Shown one piece after another: positions 5,164-17,302 of a stretch of 45,787 nucleotides of DNA. Origin of the DNA: Rhodospirillales bacterium. Lineage in GTDB: Bacteria > Pseudomonadota > Alphaproteobacteria > Geminicoccales > Geminicoccaceae. The position numbers and the translations under genes were made by a program. The stretch is taken from assembly GCA_015490605.1 (NCBI GenBank), contig WFXL01000107.1, positions 1 to 45,787 on the forward strand. The letters run 5' to 3'. Below the pieces are notes generated by a model. It was not told where the DNA came from and made no database searches. It saw only the letters and a program-made list of their open reading frames with translations. Within the stretch, counting starts at the first letter, position 1. Every line of letters begins with the position of its first letter.

Positions 5164-6579
<1,416 letters not shown>

Positions 6580-6585
6580 GGTGAA

Positions 6586-6607
6586 AGGGCGGCCCTCGGG
6601 CCGCCCT
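6586..6607 (+). promoter_or_regulatory. Stem-loop in the phaA-phaB gap
   Basis: A perfect inverted repeat (AGGGCGGCCC TC GGGCCGCCCT) starts 7 bases after the phaA stop. The innermost pair probably opens to give a 4-base loop. No T-tract follows, and the phaB ribosome-binding site begins 13 bases later. It may stabilise the phaA 3' end or attenuate read-through into phaB. The role is inferred only. Confidence 0.55.
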
Positions 6608-6631
6608 GATGCCATGGGAGAGGAGGTCAAC

Positions 6632-7354
6632 ATGTCTCGTGTTGCGCTGGTGACCGGCGGCACCCGCGGGATCGGGGCTGCCATCTCGCGGGCCCTCAAG
6701 CAGGCGGGCCATCGGGTGGTGGCCAACTACCACGGCAATGAGGAGGCGGCGCAGGCGTTTCAGCGGGAGACCGGGATCCCGGTCTACCGCTTCGATGTGG
6801 CCGATTTCGATTCCTGTCGCGAGGCCATCGGCCGCATCGAGCAGGAGGTGGGGCCGATCGACATCCTGGTGAACAATGCCGGCATTACCCGCGATACCAC
6901 CTTCCACCGCATGACCCTCGAACAGTGGCAGGCGGTGATCCGCACCAATCTCGACTCGCTGTTCAATGTCACCCGCCAGGTGATCGAGGGCATGCGTGCG
7001 CGCGGCTGGGGCCGCATCGTCAACATCTCCTCCATCAACGGCCAGAAGGGCCAGTTCGGCCAGACCAACTATTCCGCCGCCAAGGCAGGCGTGCTCGGCT
7101 TCACCAAGGCGCTGGCGCTGGAGAACGCGAAGAAGGGCATCACCGTCAACGCCATCGCCCCCGGCTATATCGCCACCGACATGGTGATGGCGGTGCGCGA
7201 GGACGTGCGCCAGCAGATCATCGCCCAGATCCCGGTGGGCCGCCTGGGTACGCCGGAGGAGGTGGCCCGCTGCGTGGTGTTCCTGGTCAGCGAGGAGGCC
7301 GGCTTCATCACCGGCGCCACCCTCACCGTCAACGGCGGCCAGTACATGATCTGA
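6632..7354 (+). CDS. phaB: Acetoacetyl-CoA reductase (SDR family)
   Basis: This 240-residue short-chain dehydrogenase reduces acetoacetyl-CoA to (R)-3-hydroxybutyryl-CoA, normally with NADPH. It shows the cofactor-binding TGGTRGIG, NNAG, and the catalytic Ser-Tyr-Lys set in NISSINGQKGQFGQTNYSAAKAG. The family-typical ending TGATLTVNGGQYM is intact. The start is ATG 6632, with AGGAGGT 4 bases upstream; an in-frame ATG at 6614 is less well placed. It directly follows phaA. FabG is the alternative family, but the motif set and neighbour favour PhaB. Confidence 0.93.
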   Translation: MSRVALVTGGTRGIGAAISRALKQAGHRVVANYHGNEEAAQAFQRETGIPVYRFDVADFDSCREAIGRIEQEVGPIDILVNNAGITRDTTFHRMTLEQWQAVIRTNLDSLFNVTRQVIEGMRARGWGRIVNISSINGQKGQFGQTNYSAAKAGVLGFTKALALENAKKGITVNAIAPGYIATDMVMAVREDVRQQIIAQIPVGRLGTPEEVARCVVFLVSEEAGFITGATLTVNGGQYMI

Positions 7355-8420: not shown

Positions 8421-9446
8421 TCATCCACCCGCGGTGCGGCCGTCCCGCAGCCGCCCGGCGACCTCCATGGCCGCATAGGTCAAGATGGCATCGGCCCCGG
8501 CCCGTTTGAAGGCGAGCAGGCATTCCATCATGCAGGCGTCGGCATCGAGCCAGCCACGCTCGCCCGCCGCCCGGATCATGGCGTACTCGCCGGAGACGTG
8601 ATAGACGAGGGTGGGCAGGCCGAAGGCCTCCTTCACCGCCCGCACCACATCGAGATAGGGCAGGCCCGGCTTCACCATCACCATGTCGGCGGCCTCGGCC
8701 ACATCCAGCGCCACCTCGCGCAGCGCCTCGGCCACATTGGCCGGTGACATCTGATAGGTCTTCTTGTCGGCCGTCCCCAGCGCCGCCTTGGAGCCCACCG
8801 CCTCGCGGAAGGGCCCGTAGAAGGCGGAGGCGTATTTAGCAGCATAGGAGAGCACCACCGTCTCCTGGAAGCCTTCCCGGTCGAGGGCCTCGCGCACCGC
8901 CCGGATGCGTCCGTCCATCATGTCCGAGGGCGCCACGATGTCGCAGCCGGCGGCCGCCAGCGTCACCGCCTGACGCTGCAGGGCTGCCACCGTCTCATCA
9001 TTGAGCACCACCCCATCGCGCACGAGCCCGTCCTGGCCATGGGTGGTGTAGGGGTCCAGCGCCACATCGCCGATGACGCCCAGCTCCGGCACGTGGCGCT
9101 TGATCTCGCGGATCGCCCGACAGACGAGATTGTCGGGGTTCCAGGCCTCCTCGGCCGCCTCGCTCTTCCTTTCGGGCGGGGTGGCGGGGAACAGGGCGAC
9201 GGCGGGAATGCCCAGCGCGACGCAGCGCTCGGCCACCGCCGGCAGCAGATCGACGCTCAGCCGATGGATCCCCGGCAGCGAGGGAATGGGCTCGCGCCGC
9301 CGGTGCCCCTCGCAGACGAACAGCGGCTGGATGAGATCGGCGGGATCCAGCCGGTGCTCGGCCACCAGCCGCCGCAGCCAGTCGGTTCGCCTGAGCCGCC
9401 GCAATCTGAGGGCCGGGAAGGACGCGAGGGGGGGAATCGCCGCCAT
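8421..9446 (-). CDS. hemB: Delta-aminolevulinic acid dehydratase (porphobilinogen synthase)
   Basis: This 341-residue enzyme condenses two 5-aminolevulinate molecules to porphobilinogen in haem synthesis. The Schiff-base lysine lies in MVKPGLPYLD and the second active-site lysine in SYAAKYASAFYGPFR. The metal segment reads ALDPYTTHGQDG. The three cysteines of the zinc-dependent enzymes are absent, as in the magnesium-type enzyme of Pseudomonas aeruginosa. ATG 9446 is preferred (GGAG upstream); GTG 9458 is the alternative. Confidence 0.95.
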   Translation of the reverse strand: MAAIPPLASFPALRLRRLRRTDWLRRLVAEHRLDPADLIQPLFVCEGHRRREPIPSLPGIHRLSVDLLPAVAERCVALGIPAVALFPATPPERKSEAAEEAWNPDNLVCRAIREIKRHVPELGVIGDVALDPYTTHGQDGLVRDGVVLNDETVAALQRQAVTLAAAGCDIVAPSDMMDGRIRAVREALDREGFQETVVLSYAAKYASAFYGPFREAVGSKAALGTADKKTYQMSPANVAEALREVALDVAEAADMVMVKPGLPYLDVVRAVKEAFGLPTLVYHVSGEYAMIRAAGERGWLDADACMMECLLAFKRAGADAILTYAAMEVAGRLRDGRTAGG

Positions 9447-9515
9447 GGCCAGCCGCACTCCGCCGGGCTCCCGCAGCCCTAACTATGCGGCCACAGGTCG
9501 CGGGCAATCGCGCCG

Positions 9516-9547
9516 GCGGCTGCGACCTCCGGTCGCGACCTCAGCCG
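9516..9547 (-). promoter_or_regulatory. Bulged hairpin at the end of the giant coiled-coil gene
   Basis: CGGCTG pairs with CAGCCG and encloses GCGACC-TCC-GGTCGC, giving up to 12 pairs with a 5-base bulge. It covers the stop codon of the 971-residue gene and the start of the gap before hemB. No U-tract follows on the minus strand, so it may be a processing or stabilising element rather than a terminator. Confidence 0.4.
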
Positions 9548-12456
9548 GCGGTGAGCACCAGCTCGATGCGCCGGTTGCGCGCGCGGCTCTCATCGTCCCG
9601 GTTGGGCACCAGCGGGCGACTGTCGGCCCAGCCCGCCACCAGCAGCCGCTCCCGCGGCAGCCCCATGGCCACCAGAAAGCGGGCCACCGCCGCCGCCCGC
9701 GCCGCCGACAGCTCCCAATTGTCGCGATAGCGGCCGCGCACCACCGGCAGATCATCGGTGTGGCCATCGATCCGCAACACCCAGGGAAGGTCCGGTGGCA
9801 GTGCCTCGAGCGCCCGGTGGAGCTGGATCGCTAGTGCGCGCAGCCGCGCTTCGGCCTCAGGCGTGAGCTCGGCCTTGCCCACCGGGAACAGGATGTCGGT
9901 GGGCAGCACCAGCCGGCCGGGCTCGAGCCGGACCACATCCTCCACCCCCGGGAGATTGGCCGCCAGCGCCGCGGTGACTTCGATCTGCGAGCGGCGGATG
10001 CGTTCGAACCCTTCGGCGATGGTCCGGGGCAGTGCCGCCGAACGCTTCACCTGCCGCCGCAGTTCCGCCAGCACCGGCGCAAAGCGGGCACGCTCGAGCT
10101 CCGCCTCGAGCGCGCGGATGCGCACATCCCGCTGTTCCACCTCCGCTTCCAGCCGAGCCACCGCCGCCTCCAGCGTACGGATGCGCCCCTGCGCCTGTTC
10201 GAGTGCCTTGCGCGCTTGGGCAAGCTCATCCCCCAGAGCGGCCAGGCGCTCTTCGAGCGCGGCCTTCTCACCGGCCAGCGCCTTTCCACGGGCCTCGGCT
10301 TCCGCCCGCGCCTGCTCCACTTCGGCAAGGGCGCGTTCCAGCTCCTGCACCCGCGCCACCGCGACCTCCAGCCGTTTGCGGGCCTTCTCCAGGGTGCGCG
10401 CGAGCGCACGTCCCTCCATGGTGCGCTCGGCCAGCTCGCCGCGCATGTCGGCAAGCTCGCCTTCGAGCTCCACCACCCGCGCCCCGGCCTCCGCCCGTGC
10501 CTTCCGGGCTTCCGCCAGCGCCTGTTCCAGCTCCGCCGTGCGCGCCTCCGCCGCCGTCCGCGCGGCGCGCTCCGCCGCAAGCGCCTGCTCCAGCTCGGCC
10601 ACCCGGCCCGTTGCCGCCTGCAGGCGTTCGCGCGCGGTGGCAAGCTTGCCCGTAAGTCCTTCCGCCTGCGCCCGGGCCGCCTGCAGTTCCGCCCGCAGCG
10701 CTTCGAGCTCCCGATCGCGCGCTTCAAGCTGCCGTTGGAGGGCCTCGCGCTCGCCCCGCAGCCGCTCGCGCTCATCCATGAGTTCCGCAAGGCGTCTCTG
10801 CGCGGCTTCGAGCTCATCCGCCCGGGCCGCCGCCTCCGTGCGGGCGCGCTCGCGTTCCGCCTGGGCCTGCTGGAGCTGGCGCGCGAGTTCCCCTTCCCGG
10901 GCCTGGCGCTCGGCCTCGGCCGCCCGCAGCCGGGCCAGCTCCCGTTCCAGTTCGGCTACCTGAGCCTCGGCCCGCTTGCGGGCGGCCTCTACCTCCGCCT
11001 GCGCGGCGCTGAGCCGCTCACGCTCGCGTTCAAGCCGTTGGAGCTCGTCGCGGGCGCGCGCAAGCTCGCGCGCCAGCGCATCGCGCTCGCGGGTGCGGGC
11101 CTCGAGCTCGGATCGGAGCCGGGCCACTTCCTGTTCGAGCGCGCTCACACGGGCTATCGCCTCGCTGGCCGCCGCCATCTCGCGGTTGCGGGCCTCGAGT
11201 TCACCGCGCAGCGCCTCGAGTTCGCGTTGGAGTTGGGCCACGCGCGCCTGGGCCGCCTGTCCCTCGCGCTCGAGCTCGGCAATCCGCGCCTGCAGCCGCG
11301 CGCGCTCATCCCGAAGAGCAGCCAGCTGCTGTTCCACCTTGGCCAGATCCTCGGCCCGCGTGCGGCGGGCTGCCGCCAGCTCGCCATCCTCCGGCCGGGC
11401 TTGAAGGCGGGCCTCCAGCGCTTCCACCTCTCGTGCAAGGCGCGCGCGCTCGGCCTCGAGCTCGCGGATGCGTGCCTGCGCCGCCTCGAGCCGCCGGGTG
11501 AGCTGGCGACGCTCCTCTTCCAGCGCCGCCATCTGCGTGCGCGCCTCGGAAAGCGCCGCCTCGAGGCGCTGCACTTCGCCCTCGAGCTGCTGGCGCTCGC
11601 GGTCGAGGGCAGCGAGCTGAGCCCGCGCCTCCTGCTCGAGCTGCTGGCGCCTTTCGAGCTCGGCCCGGGCAGCCGCGAGCTCCTCCTGCAGACGGGCGAG
11701 CTCAGCCTCGCGCGCGGCGAGTTCGCGCTCCAGCTCCCGCACCCGTGCTTCGGCTCCCTGCGCCTGTGATTCGAGCGCCGCAAGCTTCTGCGCCAGTTCC
11801 TCGCGGCGGGCCTCACCCTGGGCCAGCTGGGTGCGAGCCGCCGCCAGCGCCTGCTCGAGCTCGCCCGCCCGCTCTGCCGCGGCCTTGGCCTGGCTGCGCG
11901 CCTCCTCGAGGGCACGCTCGAGCTCGGCAGTCCGAGCACGGGCCGCTTCACTGGCACGTTCGAGTTCCGCCAGCTGCTGCTCCAGCCGGCTGATGCGAGC
12001 CTGCGCCTCGCTCAGCGCCTGCTCGCGGCGGGCGAGCTCGCCCTCGAGCTCCTGGATGCGCGCTTGGGCCTGCGCGCGACCTTGGCGTGCGTCCGCAAGT
12101 GCCGCCTCAAGCTCGCGGATGCGGGCCTCGGCCTGCTGCTGGCGCGCGCGCAGGGCTGTGAGTTCCTCGTCAAGGGCCTGCGCCTTGGCCCGTACGGCCT
12201 CGAGCTCGGCCGCCTGCTCCCGCAGGGCCTCGATGCGGCGGCGCAGCTCGCGCCCCTCGGCCGGCGGCTCCTCCAACCCCAGGCCTGCCGCCACTTCGTC
12301 CAGGGCCCCGCGAAGATCAGCGATCTCGCGCGCCCCGTACCAGGCGAGGCCGACGATGACCACCAGCGGCACCGCCACCGCCACCAGCAGGCGGCGGCGA
12401 TTGCGCCGCTGCCAGGCCTCGAAGTCGCGTTCGAGCTCGTCCATGCGATCCGTCAT
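9541..12456 (-). CDS. Giant coiled-coil inner-membrane protein with C-terminal OmpA domain
   Basis: This 971-residue protein has a short cytoplasmic N-terminus and one transmembrane helix (about 23-40, LLVAVAVPLVVIVGLAWY). About 750 residues of almost uninterrupted Ala/Glu/Arg/Leu coiled coil follow (about 45-800), then a linker and an OmpA/MotB-like peptidoglycan-binding domain (about 849-971, with DGHTDDLP and NWELSAARAAAVARFL). The OmpA domain closely resembles that of the MotB-like protein encoded upstream. The membrane helix here has no acidic residue, so it is not an ion-conducting stator helix. The ATG overlaps the stop of the small membrane gene (ATGA). The function is unknown; envelope anchoring to peptidoglycan is inferred. 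Confidence 0.85.
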   Translation of the reverse strand: MTDRMDELERDFEAWQRRNRRRLLVAVAVPLVVIVGLAWYGAREIADLRGALDEVAAGLGLEEPPAEGRELRRRIEALREQAAELEAVRAKAQALDEELTALRARQQQAEARIRELEAALADARQGRAQAQARIQELEGELARREQALSEAQARISRLEQQLAELERASEAARARTAELERALEEARSQAKAAAERAGELEQALAAARTQLAQGEARREELAQKLAALESQAQGAEARVRELERELAAREAELARLQEELAAARAELERRQQLEQEARAQLAALDRERQQLEGEVQRLEAALSEARTQMAALEEERRQLTRRLEAAQARIRELEAERARLAREVEALEARLQARPEDGELAAARRTRAEDLAKVEQQLAALRDERARLQARIAELEREGQAAQARVAQLQRELEALRGELEARNREMAAASEAIARVSALEQEVARLRSELEARTRERDALARELARARDELQRLERERERLSAAQAEVEAARKRAEAQVAELERELARLRAAEAERQAREGELARQLQQAQAERERARTEAAARADELEAAQRRLAELMDERERLRGEREALQRQLEARDRELEALRAELQAARAQAEGLTGKLATARERLQAATGRVAELEQALAAERAARTAAEARTAELEQALAEARKARAEAGARVVELEGELADMRGELAERTMEGRALARTLEKARKRLEVAVARVQELERALAEVEQARAEAEARGKALAGEKAALEERLAALGDELAQARKALEQAQGRIRTLEAAVARLEAEVEQRDVRIRALEAELERARFAPVLAELRRQVKRSAALPRTIAEGFERIRRSQIEVTAALAANLPGVEDVVRLEPGRLVLPTDILFPVGKAELTPEAEARLRALAIQLHRALEALPPDLPWVLRIDGHTDDLPVVRGRYRDNWELSAARAAAVARFLVAMGLPRERLLVAGWADSRPLVPNRDDESRARNRRIELVLTAG

Positions 12457-12818
12457 CGCCCTTCCCTTCCCACGCGCCTGTGCCCATAGGCGCGCTGTAA
12501 CATGGTCACAATACGCGCCTCATGCCCAGGGTCGGCCCGCAGCAGCTCCGCCCATTCCTCCGCCAGAGTTCTGAGACCCGCCTCGCGCTCGCGGTGCTCG
12601 AGCCGCAGGTGCCAGGGCAGGAGGGTCAGGGCCAGGGCGACAAACCCCAGAGCCAGCGCTGCATCCCGCCAGGGCCCATCCACCAGCGCCCCGACTAGCA
12701 GCAGTCCGCCCCCGAAGACCAGCAACGCCCAGGCCAGGCGCGCGGCCCCGGCGGCGGCCCGGTGGTGACGGTCGGCCAGACGGGTGCAGACGGCCGCGGC
12801 CCGGGCCCGTGGCTCCAC
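12453..12818 (-). CDS. Small two-helix membrane protein of unknown function
   Basis: This 121-residue protein starts at GTG 12818 with a GGGAGAGGGG ribosome-binding site upstream. Two hydrophobic helices are visible (about residues 28-44 and 52-68), flanked by a basic N-terminus and a charged C-terminal helical region rich in Glu and Arg. No family is recognised. Its stop overlaps the start of the giant coiled-coil gene, and it follows the MotB-like gene by 74 bases. It probably belongs to the same envelope complex. Confidence 0.72.
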   Translation of the reverse strand: MEPRARAAAVCTRLADRHHRAAAGAARLAWALLVFGGGLLLVGALVDGPWRDAALALGFVALALTLLPWHLRLEHREREAGLRTLAEEWAELLRADPGHEARIVTMLQRAYGHRRVGREGR

Positions 12819-12892
12819 GGCGTATTCCCCCTCTCCCGCGATGGCCCGGGCGAGCTTGCCCGAGCGCCGGCAAAAGGCAAGAGGCGGGAAGG

Positions 12893-14095
12893 TCAGCGGG
12901 TAGTGAGCTTGATCTCGATGCGGCGGTTGCGACGATAGGCTTCTTCGGTATTCCGCGGGTCCAGCGGCTGGTAGTGGGCGAAGCCGCGCGCCGCCACCCG
13001 CTCGGGCGGGATGCCGTGGTCGATCAGAAAACGCGCCACCGCGATGGCGCGGGCGGTGGAGAGCTCCCAGTTGGAGGGAAAGCGGGCGGTGCGGATGGGC
13101 CGCTTGTCGGTATGGCCGTCCACCTGCAGCACCCAGGGCAGGTCATCGGGGATCTGCGGCATGATCTCGCGGAACACCCGCACGAAGGTCTCGAGCTCGC
13201 GCCGGCCCGCTTCATTGAGCTCGGCGCTGCCGGTATCAAACAGGATCTCCGACTGGAACACGAAGCGATCGCCGACGATGCGCACGTCCGGCCGATTGCC
13301 CAGCACCTCGCGCAGCTTGCCGAAGAAGTCGGAGCGGTACCTGGCGAGCTCCTCCACCTTGCGCGCGAGCGCCAGATTGAGGCGCGCGCCGAGATCGCGG
13401 ATCACCTCGCTCTGGCGGGCGAGCTCCTCCTCCCGCACTTCCAGCGCCGCCGCGAGCTGTCGTAGCTCCTGCCCGAGCTCGCGGATCTGGCGGCTGAGGG
13501 TGGCCACCTGCACCAGCGCCGCGCGCTTCTCGCCCTCGAGCCGGCTGCGCTCGGCCTCGAGCTCGCGGATGCGGGCCTCCAGCGCCGCCACCCGTTCGGC
13601 CCCGCTTCGACGTTCCTCGGCGAGCTCGCTGCGGGCGGCGGTGAGCGCCTGTTCGAGCCGGGCCGCACGCGCGGCGATGCGCGCGCGCTCCTCGCGCGCC
13701 CGCTCCAGCCGTCCCTCCAGCTCCTGCACCGTCACCCCCAGCCGGTCCAATTGCTGCTGCAGGAGCTCGCGATCCGCACTCACCGCCGCCAGCCGCGCCT
13801 CGGCCTCCTCGCGGCTCGCCAGCAGACTGTCGAGATCGCTCGAAAGGCGCGCGATCTCCTGGCGCAGGCGGCTGGTGACGGCACGCTCCTCCTGCAGCTG
13901 CTGTTCGAGGCTGGTGATCTGGGCGCGCAGCCGTTCGACGGTGACATCGCTGCGCTGCAGCAGGCGGCCGAGGAAGAACTGGGCGAGAACGAAGATGGCC
14001 AGCAAGAAGATGACCACCATGAGCAGCGTCGACAGGGCGTCGACGAAGCCCGGCCAGATGTCGACGCGCTCACGGGCGGCCCGAAGGCGCGGCAT
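12893..14095 (-). CDS. MotB-like OmpA-domain protein with coiled coil (stator/plug subunit)
   Basis: This 400-residue protein has one N-terminal membrane helix in WPGFVDALSTLLMVVIFLLA. Asp19 is placed like the proton-carrying aspartate of MotB, ExbD and ZorB. A coiled coil (about 50-250) leads to a C-terminal OmpA domain (about 256-400, DGHTDKRPI and NWELSTARAIAVARFL) that should bind peptidoglycan. It lies 6 bases after the MotA/ExbB-like gene, the expected partner. Databases often label this family only as a peptidoglycan-binding or OmpA protein. An ion-driven motor is inferred from the aspartate and the pairing. Confidence 0.85.
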   Translation of the reverse strand: MPRLRAARERVDIWPGFVDALSTLLMVVIFLLAIFVLAQFFLGRLLQRSDVTVERLRAQITSLEQQLQEERAVTSRLRQEIARLSSDLDSLLASREEAEARLAAVSADRELLQQQLDRLGVTVQELEGRLERAREERARIAARAARLEQALTAARSELAEERRSGAERVAALEARIRELEAERSRLEGEKRAALVQVATLSRQIRELGQELRQLAAALEVREEELARQSEVIRDLGARLNLALARKVEELARYRSDFFGKLREVLGNRPDVRIVGDRFVFQSEILFDTGSAELNEAGRRELETFVRVFREIMPQIPDDLPWVLQVDGHTDKRPIRTARFPSNWELSTARAIAVARFLIDHGIPPERVAARGFAHYQPLDPRNTEEAYRRNRRIEIKLTTR

Positions 14096-14101
14096 GGCGC
14101 C

Positions 14102-15262
14102 TCACTCTCCCGGCAGCGCCTGGGGTTCGCCGGCGGCCAGCGCCACGGTCCGGGTGAGCACCCGGATTTCATCGCGCAGCTCGCGGGTAGCGATCTCGCG
14201 GCCGCGCACGCTCTCCTCCAGCAGCTGGGCGAGGCGGGTGTCGATGCTGCGCAGATGCCGGCGAAGTTCCTCGTCGACGGCGACGATGCCGCGCTCGAGC
14301 CGCTCGCCGATGGCCTTCTGGCTCTCCGCCAGCCGCACCAGCACCTGCTGGTCGCGCCGCAGCCGATCATCCAGCGCCGCCAGCGCCTCCGCCAGCGCCC
14401 CCAGCTGGCGCACCAGTTCGCCGCGGGCGGCCTCGCTGCGCCGCTGGGCCTGTTCCAGCCGCTCGAGATTCTCCGCGGTCTGCTCCAGCAGTGCCTGGAC
14501 ATAGGTGGGAATGGGCTCGCCCGCCGGCGCCGGCAGCCGCCGCCGCTCCTCCCGCACCGGCGCCGGCGTGCCGGCGTCATGGCGCACCAGCCCCGAGAGC
14601 CACTCCTCCACCTCATTGTAGAAGGCGTTCTGGGCCTGGGTCGCCTGAAGATCGACGAAGCCCAGCACCAGCGAGCCGGCGAGGCCGAAGAGCGAGGAGC
14701 TGAAGGCGGTGCCCATGCCGCTAAGCGGCGAGGCGAGGCCGGCCTTGAGGTCCTCGAACACGGCGGCGAGATCGGCGCCGGCGAGCTCGAGCCCGGCGAT
14801 CACCCCGGCCACCGCCTCGATGGTCTGCAGCAGCCCCCAGAAGGTGCCGAGCAGGCCGAGGAAGATCAGAAGGCCCGTCTGATAGCGGGTAATGTCACGG
14901 CTCTCGTCCAGCCGCGCGGCGATGCTGTCGAGGAAATAGCGCACCGTAAGGGGCGAGAGCGCCCGCTCGCCCGATTCCCGCAGCAGACCCGCAAGCGGTC
15001 CCAGCAGCTGCGGCGGGCTCGCTCCCTCGGCAACCATGCGCCCCTGCTCGAAGGCGGCGATCCAGCGGATCTCCCGGCCCAGCACGAGGATGCGGCGGAC
15101 GGTGTAGAGGATCCCCACCACCAGCACGCCGAGGATCAGCCCGTTGAGGGCGGGATTGTGCAGAAAGGCGCGCCAGACCACCTCATAGACCGCCGCCACC
15201 ACCAACAGCGCCGCGGCGAGGAACAGCCACACGCGATTGAGAAAGCGCCTGGGATCGGTCAT
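14102..15262 (-). CDS. MotA/TolQ/ExbB-like proton channel protein with C-terminal coiled-coil tail
   Basis: This 386-residue protein has four predicted membrane helices (about 11-30, 40-57, 128-148, 183-204). The last two carry the family signature LIFLGLLGTFWGLLQTI and GMGTAFSSSLFGLAGSLVLG. After the channel core comes a cytoplasmic region (about 205-386), mostly coiled coil from about 255. A tail of this kind is found in ZorA but not in ExbB. The start chosen is ATG 15262; the track start at 15358 adds 32 arginine-rich residues with no similarity. It lies next to the MotB-like partner. The pump partner pair is clear; the driven process is unknown. Confidence 0.85.
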   Translation of the reverse strand: MTDPRRFLNRVWLFLAAALLVVAAVYEVVWRAFLHNPALNGLILGVLVVGILYTVRRILVLGREIRWIAAFEQGRMVAEGASPPQLLGPLAGLLRESGERALSPLTVRYFLDSIAARLDESRDITRYQTGLLIFLGLLGTFWGLLQTIEAVAGVIAGLELAGADLAAVFEDLKAGLASPLSGMGTAFSSSLFGLAGSLVLGFVDLQATQAQNAFYNEVEEWLSGLVRHDAGTPAPVREERRRLPAPAGEPIPTYVQALLEQTAENLERLEQAQRRSEAARGELVRQLGALAEALAALDDRLRRDQQVLVRLAESQKAIGERLERGIVAVDEELRRHLRSIDTRLAQLLEESVRGREIATRELRDEIRVLTRTVALAAGEPQALPGE

Positions 15263-15372: not shown

Positions 15373-16626
15373 TCAGTCCTCCCGCAGGCGGATGCGCACA
15401 TGGCGCTTGCGGCCGGCGGAGAGTTTGATCTCGCCCCGCTGGAACAGCTCCGGGGTGACCACCATGCGCTCGTCCTCGATGCGCAGATCATCCAGCCGCG
15501 CGCCGCCGCCGCGGATGAGGCGGCGCGCCTCGCCATTGGAGCGGGTCAGGCCCGCGCGGGTGAAGAGCTCCACCACCGGCAGGCCGTCGCCCAGCTCGCT
15601 GCGGCGGATCTCCACCACCGGCACGGCGGCCACATCGCCGCCGCCGCCCTCGAACAGCGCCCTGGCGGCCTCGGCCGCCCGGCGCGCCTCGTCCTCGCCG
15701 TGGGCCAGACGGGTGGCCTCGAACGCCAGCACCTTCTTGGCCTCATTGATCTCGGCCCCGCGCAGCCGCTCCAGCCGCGCGATCTCGTCCATGGGCAGTT
15801 CGGTGAAGAGCCGGAGAAAGCGGCCCACGTCGGCATCCTCGGTGTTGCGCCAGAACTGCCAGTAGTCGAACGGCGACAGTTTGTCGGCATTGAGCCACAC
15901 CGCACCGCGGGCGGTCTTGCCCATCTTCGCGCCTGAGGCGGTGGTGAGCAGCGGACAGGTGAGGCCGAACAGACGCCGGCGCTCCTTCTTGTGGGCCAGT
16001 TCGATGCCGCAGACGATGTTGCCCCACTGGTCCGAGCCGCCCATCTGCAGCCGGCAGTCGTAGCGCCGGGCGAGCTCGAGGAAATCATACGCCTGCATCA
16101 CCATGTAGTTGAACTCGAGGAAGGTGAGCGGCTGCTCGCGCTCGAGCCGCTGGCGCACGCTCTCGAAAGTGAGCATGCGGTTGAGGGTGAGATGGCGGCC
16201 GTATTCCCGCAGAAAGGGGATATAGCGCAGCTCGTCCAGCCATGCGGCATTGTCCACCAGCAGCGCGCCGCCCTCGGAAAAATCGAGGAACTTGGAAAGG
16301 GATCTGAGGATGCCCTGCTTGTTGCGGGCGATCTCTTCGTCCGACAGCAGCCGGCGGCTCTCGTCCTTGCCCGAGGGGTCGCCCACCTTGGTGGTGCCGC
16401 CGCCTACCAGCGCAATCGGCCGATGGCCGGTCCGCTGCAGCCAGCGCAGCATCATGATGGTGAGCAGATTGCCCACATGGAGGCTGTCGGCGGTGCAGTC
16501 ATAGCCGACATAGGCCACCACCCGCTGGCTTTGGAACAGCTGGTCGAGCCCCTCGGGGTCGGTGCACTGATAGATGAAGCCGCGCTCCTCGAGGATACGC
16601 AGGAAGTCCGAGCGAAACCCCGCCAT
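15373..16626 (-). CDS. tyrS: Tyrosyl-tRNA synthetase
   Basis: This 417-residue class I synthetase charges tRNA-Tyr. The HIGH-like motif is [24 protein letters not shown] is the tyrosine-binding region, and [14 protein letters not shown] is the KMSKS-type loop. The C-terminal S4-like domain (about 350-417) contains [18 protein letters not shown]. The start is ATG 16626 with a GAGGGG site; the longer track start is not supported. It follows the alpha/beta hydrolase by 10 bases. Confidence 0.96.
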
Positions 16627-16636
16627 CGACCGCCCC

Positions 16637-17302
16637 TCACCGTTCGATCGCCAGGGTCTCGCTGGCGGCCAGTCGCCGGTCGAGATATTCCTCACAGATC
16701 GCCTCGAGCCGGTCGAAGGCGTCGCGGAAGAAGTGGTCGGTGCCCTCGATGGTGCGGAATTCGACCGTGGTGCCGCGCTGCTGGGCGAGCCGGCTCAGGA
16801 ACTGTTCCACCGCCTCGGGCGGGGTCACCATGTCGCGCTCGCCATGGACCAGAAGGCCGGAGGCGGGACACGGCGCGAGGAAGCTGAAATCATAGAGATT
16901 GGCCGGCAGCGCGCAGCAGATGAAGCCCTCCACCTCGGGCCGGCGCATCAGCAGCTGCATGGCGATCCAGGCGCCGAAGCCGAAGCCCGCCACCCATACG
17001 GTAGTACTGTCGGGATTGAGGGACTGCATCCAGTCGAGGGCAATGGCCGCATCCCGGAGCTCGCCCTGGCCATGGTCGAACACCCCCTGGGACCGGCCGA
17101 CGCCGCGGGAATTGTAGCGCAGCACCGAGAACCCCCGCCGCGCGAACACGTGGAAGAGGGTGTAGACCACGCGGTTGTTCATGGTGCCGCCATGCAGCGG
17201 ATGGGGGTGGAAGACGATGGCGAGCGGCGGGGTCTCGCCCTTGCCGTGGACATAGCGGCCTTCGAGTCGCCCGTCGGCACCCTGGAAGATGACTTCCGGC
17301 AT
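16637..17302 (-). CDS. Alpha/beta hydrolase (COG2945 type) with altered nucleophile elbow
   Basis: This 221-residue protein resembles the COG2945 family of predicted alpha/beta hydrolases: [12 protein letters not shown] (oxyanion region), [22 protein letters not shown] (acid) and GTDHFF (histidine). The nucleophile elbow, usually GxSxG in this family, reads GFGFG, so the serine position (residue 108) is glycine. The codon is GGC where AGC would give serine, a one-base difference. ATG 17302 is chosen because similarity starts at [11 protein letters not shown]. It may be catalytically dead, or a sequencing error. The substrate is unknown. Confidence 0.85.

Follow-up and report, generated by a model that had tools for sequence, protein, structure and literature searches.

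Four genes on one strand of a stretch of alphaproteobacterial DNA (45,787 nucleotides, referred to hereafter as the window) had been described, from the letters alone, as an envelope cluster built around a ZorA/ZorB-like motor. Do these genes encode an ion-driven motor and, if so, does it serve phage defence or the upkeep of the cell envelope?

Organization of the locus

All four open reading frames of the original prediction were found in place on the minus strand, with short gaps or overlaps. A and B are separated by 6 nt and B and S by 74 nt, while S and G overlap by 4 nt (ATGA). The genes and their flanks are as follows.

tyrS, 15373-16695, minus strand: tyrosine--tRNA ligase, upstream flank, outside the system (TIGR00234, 350 bits, cut-off 113.8)
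Gene A, 14102-15262, minus strand: MotA/TolQ/ExbB/ZorA-type motor channel subunit, 386 aa (AlphaFold2, Foldseek, alignment)
Gene B, 12893-14095, minus strand: MotB-type partner, 400 aa, NCBIfam NF006543 (PRK09039) (curated score, Pfam OmpA)
Gene S, 12453-12818, minus strand: two-transmembrane (TM) hairpin protein, 121 aa, GTG start, no known family
Gene G, 9541-12456, minus strand: giant inner-membrane-anchored coiled-coil protein with a C-terminal OmpA domain, 971 aa
hemB, 8421-9458, minus strand: porphobilinogen synthase, downstream flank, outside the system (NF006762, 492 bits, cut-off 297)

Because tyrS lies upstream and hemB downstream, both as curated matches, the cluster is not in a defence island. 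Its neighbours in the window are tyrS, a hydrolase, cysE, hemB, yqgE and phaAB-type genes; the last, a phaA/phaB-type thiolase and acetoacetyl-CoA reductase pair for polyhydroxyalkanoate synthesis, occupies 5269-7354 on the plus strand. A scan of the cluster for promoters and terminators gave no evidence of either, and such a scan is uninformative for this GC-rich genome. The cluster goes beyond a chance arrangement, since the motor and wall-binding motifs of A and B are invariant among homologues and at least 10 other genomes have the same order, A-B-S-G.

A and B have the features of a 5:2-type motor

Gene A starts with ATG at 15262. Its product has hydrophobic segments at residues ~11-29, 34-60, 130-148 and 185-203, corresponding to four predicted TMs, and a helical C-terminal tail (residues 253-376). 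The AlphaFold2 model (pLDDT 85) placed helices at the four TMs and in the tail. When this model was compared with the PDB by Foldseek, the top 50 matches were all TolQ, ExbB, ZorA, MotA or PomA chains; their probability was mostly 1.00 with E-values only of 1e-3 and up, which makes this evidence at the level of the fold. As modelled, A has the TolQ/ExbB/ZorA/MotA fold. In an alignment of 37 homologues the TM3 motif GLLGTFWGL and the TM4 motif GMGTAFSSSLFGLAGSL were nearly invariant; GLLGTF, GM..F..S.FGLAGSL, Thr140 in TM3 and Ser190 in TM4 were invariant.

The product of B has one TM (24-42), a coiled coil (46-255) and an OmpA domain (285-391; Pfam OmpA, 63.8 bits). Asp19 sits in 'WPGFVDALSTLL' and, together with W14, P15, G16 and V18, was invariant at the start of the TM among 34 homologues, as were the GHTD and NRRIE signatures of the OmpA domain. 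B is a full member of NF006543 (PRK09039, 'peptidoglycan -binding protein'), scoring 419.3 bits against a cut-off of 305, and also scores with MotB-family models.

These results bear out the proposal of a MotA/ExbB-type channel with a C-terminal tail beside a peptidoglycan-binding, MotB-type partner, and the fold and key residues (T140, S190, D19) support a pair of the 5:2 type. We infer that A and B together would make up an ion-driven motor in the inner membrane, a member of the 5:2 superfamily. Five A subunits would turn around a dimer of B, whose coiled-coil stalk would hold the OmpA domains on the cell wall, and ion flow would thereby generate torque or tension between membrane and wall. 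That A-B is a motor is very likely. The suggestion that the tail transmits force, along with the giant partner G, did not hold in general: A is only ~280-320 aa in several families, where the tail is short or absent, so the tail cannot be the universal force-transmitting part.

The pair is separate from the flagellar, Tol and Ton systems of the same cell

The window's A gave no match to Pfam PF01618 (MotA_ExbB) at E up to 0.1 and no other Pfam motor match; among its homologues, PF01618 matched weakly in 21 of 37 at E<=0.01, the best at 1.4e-5. The window genome encodes its own MotA on another contig (G000:C89; TIGR03818, 351 bits, above the cut-off) and two further PF01618 paralogues of the TolQ/ExbB type, and A was among the matches of neither search. 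A-B is therefore none of flagellar MotA, TolQ or ExbB; it is a system apart from the cell's own flagellar stator, TolQR and ExbBD. Like TolQR and ExbBD, A has a TolQ-type fold and a GT(F/V)WG motif in TM3; unlike them, A has four predicted TMs and a long tail, B carries an OmpA domain, and A is missed by PF01618 in a genome where the TolQ/ExbB-type paralogues coexist with it.

Identity in two ungapped motor blocks of A was 35% to ZorA, 21% to TolQ/ExbB-type proteins and 14% to MotA, over 54 ungapped columns with imperfect MotA anchors, a signal too small for a tree. These values bear on whether A-B is an accessory flagellar stator, as annotations in Brucella and Komagataeibacter suggest. Homologues are called MotA and MotB in databases and papers (PMC7410920, PMC6570709), and B resembles MotB both in its matches to MotB-family models and in its Asp and OmpA domain. 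A, however, falls outside the MotA family and resembles ZorA and TolQ more than MotA (with the imperfect anchoring noted), the true MotA is encoded elsewhere in the genome, and Komagataeibacter has no flagella (PMC6570709). We regard a flagellar role as very improbable.

A-B is a core pair of the Alphaproteobacteria

Of the 32 genomes in the window's family, 31 had A; the count was 48 of 61 among relatives and, usually as a single copy, 266 of 387 among alphaproteobacterial genomes. A was missing mainly from small genomes and from a few whole families (e.g. f13). A-B is thus a usually single-copy, mostly class-wide core pair, carried by most Alphaproteobacteria with larger genomes. It is nevertheless dispensable in places, as shown by the families that lack A and by Brucella ovis, in which motA is frameshifted (PMC7410920). 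B directly followed A in 33 of 36 and in 74 of 80 loci. Across the class the pair lies in a block, efp-suhB-(U)-A-B, with a convergent ABC exporter: efp-suhB was upstream in ~81 of 124 loci and the exporter was present in 54. A scan of named genomes also found homologous loci in Acidisoma and Azospirillum, with no Komagataeibacter among its matches; a search for Acetobacteraceae homologues by way of a cellulose-synthase marker arrived at SAR116.

In Sinorhizobium meliloti CP090106 the order is suhB-A-B-ABC-rpmE. The pair (LZK74_31000-30995) is annotated as 'MotA/TolQ/ExbB proton channel family protein' and 'peptidoglycan -binding protein'; its A is 41% identical to the window's A over 331 aa, its B is 39% identical, and B is likewise a PRK09039 member. 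The pairs share family, adjacency and conserved residues, and the window's B passes the curated cut-off. The window differs from such PRK09039/NF006543 pairs, known by annotation name only, in having the extra S and G and in lacking U and the efp-suhB surroundings. The record CP090106.1 (L273), 3.7 Mb and labelled S. meliloti plasmid pSymB, carries housekeeping genes, namely purE, rpmE and thiamine phosphate synthase, and is probably the chromosome mislabelled in the plasmid collection.

Outside the Alphaproteobacteria A-B is sporadic, and phage records contained no A homologue. Strong homologues of A outside the class (Tahibacter caeni, L200; a Rhodanobacteraceae MAG, L190; G476/G530/G552, G540 and G719) suggest occasional horizontal transfer of A-B. 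Gammaproteobacterial and other matches (G658, G599, G434, G618 and more) in several families outside the class have A-like motor domains in much longer open frames, of ~700-1300 aa, which are possibly Zorya-like or belong to another long-tailed housekeeping motor.

A secreted OmpA-type protein accompanies the motor in many lineages

Directly upstream of A in 47 of 80 named loci was a gene, here called U, whose product is proline-rich and secreted and ends in an OmpA-like domain (Pfam OmpA) that lacks the canonical GHTD aspartate. U has this position in many loci, L047, L048, L054 and L191 among them, and U-A-B, the usual arrangement of the pair, forms a three-gene unit across the class. In the window's family U is missing: the best match there scored 59 bits, and that in the window genome 41 bits, as against ~80-150 bits for most true U proteins. 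Brucella BspD was checked as a candidate U and rejected.

Could U, or G, be a force transducer pulled by the motor, with A-B energizing outer-membrane processes or secretion in a Tol-, Ton- or gliding-like manner? Motor-coupled transducers are diverse (PMC12204202); U, with its proline-rich linker and OmpA-like domain, sits directly before A, and G is a long single-TM coiled-coil protein. By inspection only, however, U appears to carry a signal peptide rather than a TolA/TonB-type anchor, no conserved substrate or receptor gene lies beside A-B, and G is confined to one family. We consider this reading unlikely, while giving it some weight.

S and G are a family-specific addition

S, predicted to be a two-helix protein, is indeed a 121-aa protein with two predicted TMs (AlphaFold2 pLDDT 90). 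We collected 22 homologues; searches of the PDB by fold and by sequence gave no significant match. The description of G as a 971-residue coiled-coil OmpA protein was also upheld. G has a single TM (23-41) and an OmpA domain at 856-962 (Pfam OmpA, 63.8 bits) in which the GHTD/NRRIE residues are present. Between them, residues 66-793 form a long heptad-periodic stretch with one proline only; the periodicity of Leu/Ile/Val/Met at 3.5 was 1.51, compared with a maximum of 1.12 in 500 permutations. A continuous helix rises by 0.15 nm per residue, and the central stretch of G as such a helix would be ~110 nm long. This far exceeds the width of the periplasm; G must therefore lie along the envelope or be folded back on itself.

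Within the window's own family 21 of 32 genomes had S, and G follows S in relatives. In 289 genomes of the class, the S model gave no convincing match outside the family; three partial matches there of 22-24 bits were treated as chance. On the tree of A, the carriers of S-G formed one 21-row clade (support 92/93) with one loss, a pattern that points to a single addition of S-G within the window's own family. The four-gene order is conserved among relatives, but the cluster is no single ancient block: A-B belongs to the core of the class, and S-G is a two-gene addition confined to one family. S-G lay on a different contig from A-B in two genomes (L089 in G017; L090 in G011) and was duplicated in a third (L091 in G024). 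S-G is thus a separable module and, given the two pairs found away from A-B, it may act independently of the motor. In L034 (G004), where no S was detectable, G comes straight after B, though sister genomes keep S.

A-B resembles ZorAB but is not a Zorya member

The tail of A had been said to recall Zorya anti-phage defence, and the comparison has substance. The best profile match of A among solved sequences was ZorA (8vvn, E=1e-4), spanning TM3 through the tail; the tail portion of this alignment is coiled-coil-like and adds little. In profile alignments a match spanning both TM3 and TM4 was obtained only with ZorA, using a profile from two ZorA sequences. The PADLOC ZorA and ZorB models matched A-B with 43 and 85 bits, and the motor-block identities given above are highest to ZorA. 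With ZorA/ZorB the pair shares motor blocks and an OmpA-type peptidoglycan-binding B subunit; the window's A has the helices of a cytoplasmic tail as well, although in some homologues of ~280-320 aa this tail is much reduced. In Brucella abortus, a smooth strain resistant to phage has a point mutation in BruAb1_1699, the probable orthologue of B (PMC6510165), a correlation only. A divergent Zorya-type system could be imagined in which A-B senses wall damage through the OmpA domains, the tail of A recruits an effector, and S and G are lineage-specific sensor parts.

Scores, neighbourhood and distribution argue against such a system. A fell far below the cut-offs of the ZorA NCBIfam models (NF033915, 22.2 bits against 100; NF033917, 19.9 against 500). 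As had been noted before, no ZorC, ZorD or ZorE is near; neither is a nuclease or helicase gene beside A-B, and the flanking genes (tyrS, hemB, yqgE, cysE) are housekeeping. The pair is core and not patchy: A is present in roughly two-thirds of the class genomes sampled, whereas the ZorA1 model matched in 3 of 249 genomes of the phylum. The tail of ZorA is essential for Zorya defence (PMC11890865), while that of A is shorter, and in several families A has little tail. We conclude that A-B resembles ZorAB in its motor and wall anchor but is not a Zorya member, and a defensive role of this kind is improbable. The earlier view that a housekeeping role was equally possible understated the case, as the single-copy core distribution and the housekeeping neighbourhood favour a role in the envelope.

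A proposed envelope motor

The reading we favour, which we hold to be somewhat probable, is that the cluster encodes a peptidoglycan-anchored 5:2-type motor for envelope maintenance, to which S-G contributes a lineage-specific second anchor. In many lineages U is encoded with the motor; the window's family lacks U and has gained S and G. G would probably serve as a second wall anchor, tethered to the inner membrane and engaging or extending the motor. Upkeep of the envelope, such as wall-membrane coordination, cell shape or division, is the most likely role, and not phage defence. For A-B itself, an envelope role is moderately probable; whether S-G is coupled to A-B is evenly balanced.

More tentatively, U-A-B could represent a fourth class of ion-driven envelope motor, so far unrecognized, that drives a wall-linked process; it would stand apart from MotAB, TolQR and ExbBD and have a share in the ancestry of ZorAB. 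In one family it would have been rebuilt with a hairpin protein, S, and a coiled-coil wall anchor, G, potentially >100 nm long and acting as a lateral tension element or track. A-B occurs in about two-thirds of the alphaproteobacterial genomes sampled, S. meliloti and Azospirillum among them, and has gone under a flagellar label or that of a generic peptidoglycan-binding protein. Should it be a motor in its own right, an actuator is missing from the envelope mechanics of a heavily studied class, and Zorya may have arisen from a housekeeping motor or have a common ancestor with one. The pair also runs counter to a published statement that B subunits of the non-flagellar (GIT) kind lack homology to OmpA (PMC12505986).

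Probable homologues in studied organisms

The operon is small and present in tractable laboratory strains, so that its function is directly testable. In Komagataeibacter hansenii, a non-flagellate host, MotA and MotB are encoded by adjacent genes and are 348 and 321 aa long; MotA/MotB-GFP is polar, and overexpression elongates cells (PMC6570709). These are adjacent MotA/ExbB- and OmpA/MotB-type genes with lengths similar to those of the window's A-B, whereas no S or G is reported there (PMC6570709); the probable link is drawn from gene order, lengths and annotation.

In Brucella, motA and motB of chromosome I (BMEI0325/0324, BAB1_1725/1726) adjoin an msbA-like ABC exporter, BMEI0323 (PMC2821768, PMC7410920). 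Both are direct targets of BvrR-P, and signature-tagged mutagenesis is cited as having picked up motA (PMC9491525). Gene order and the adjacent exporter are the same as for A-B, the correspondence being drawn from order, length and annotation; the literature assumes a flagellar function. Papers assign BMEI0325 and BMEI0324, probably the orthologues of A and B, to the flagellar stator or to a 'flagellum-like system' (PMC7410920, PMC9491525, PMC10449500), and this flagellar labelling is likely a misannotation.
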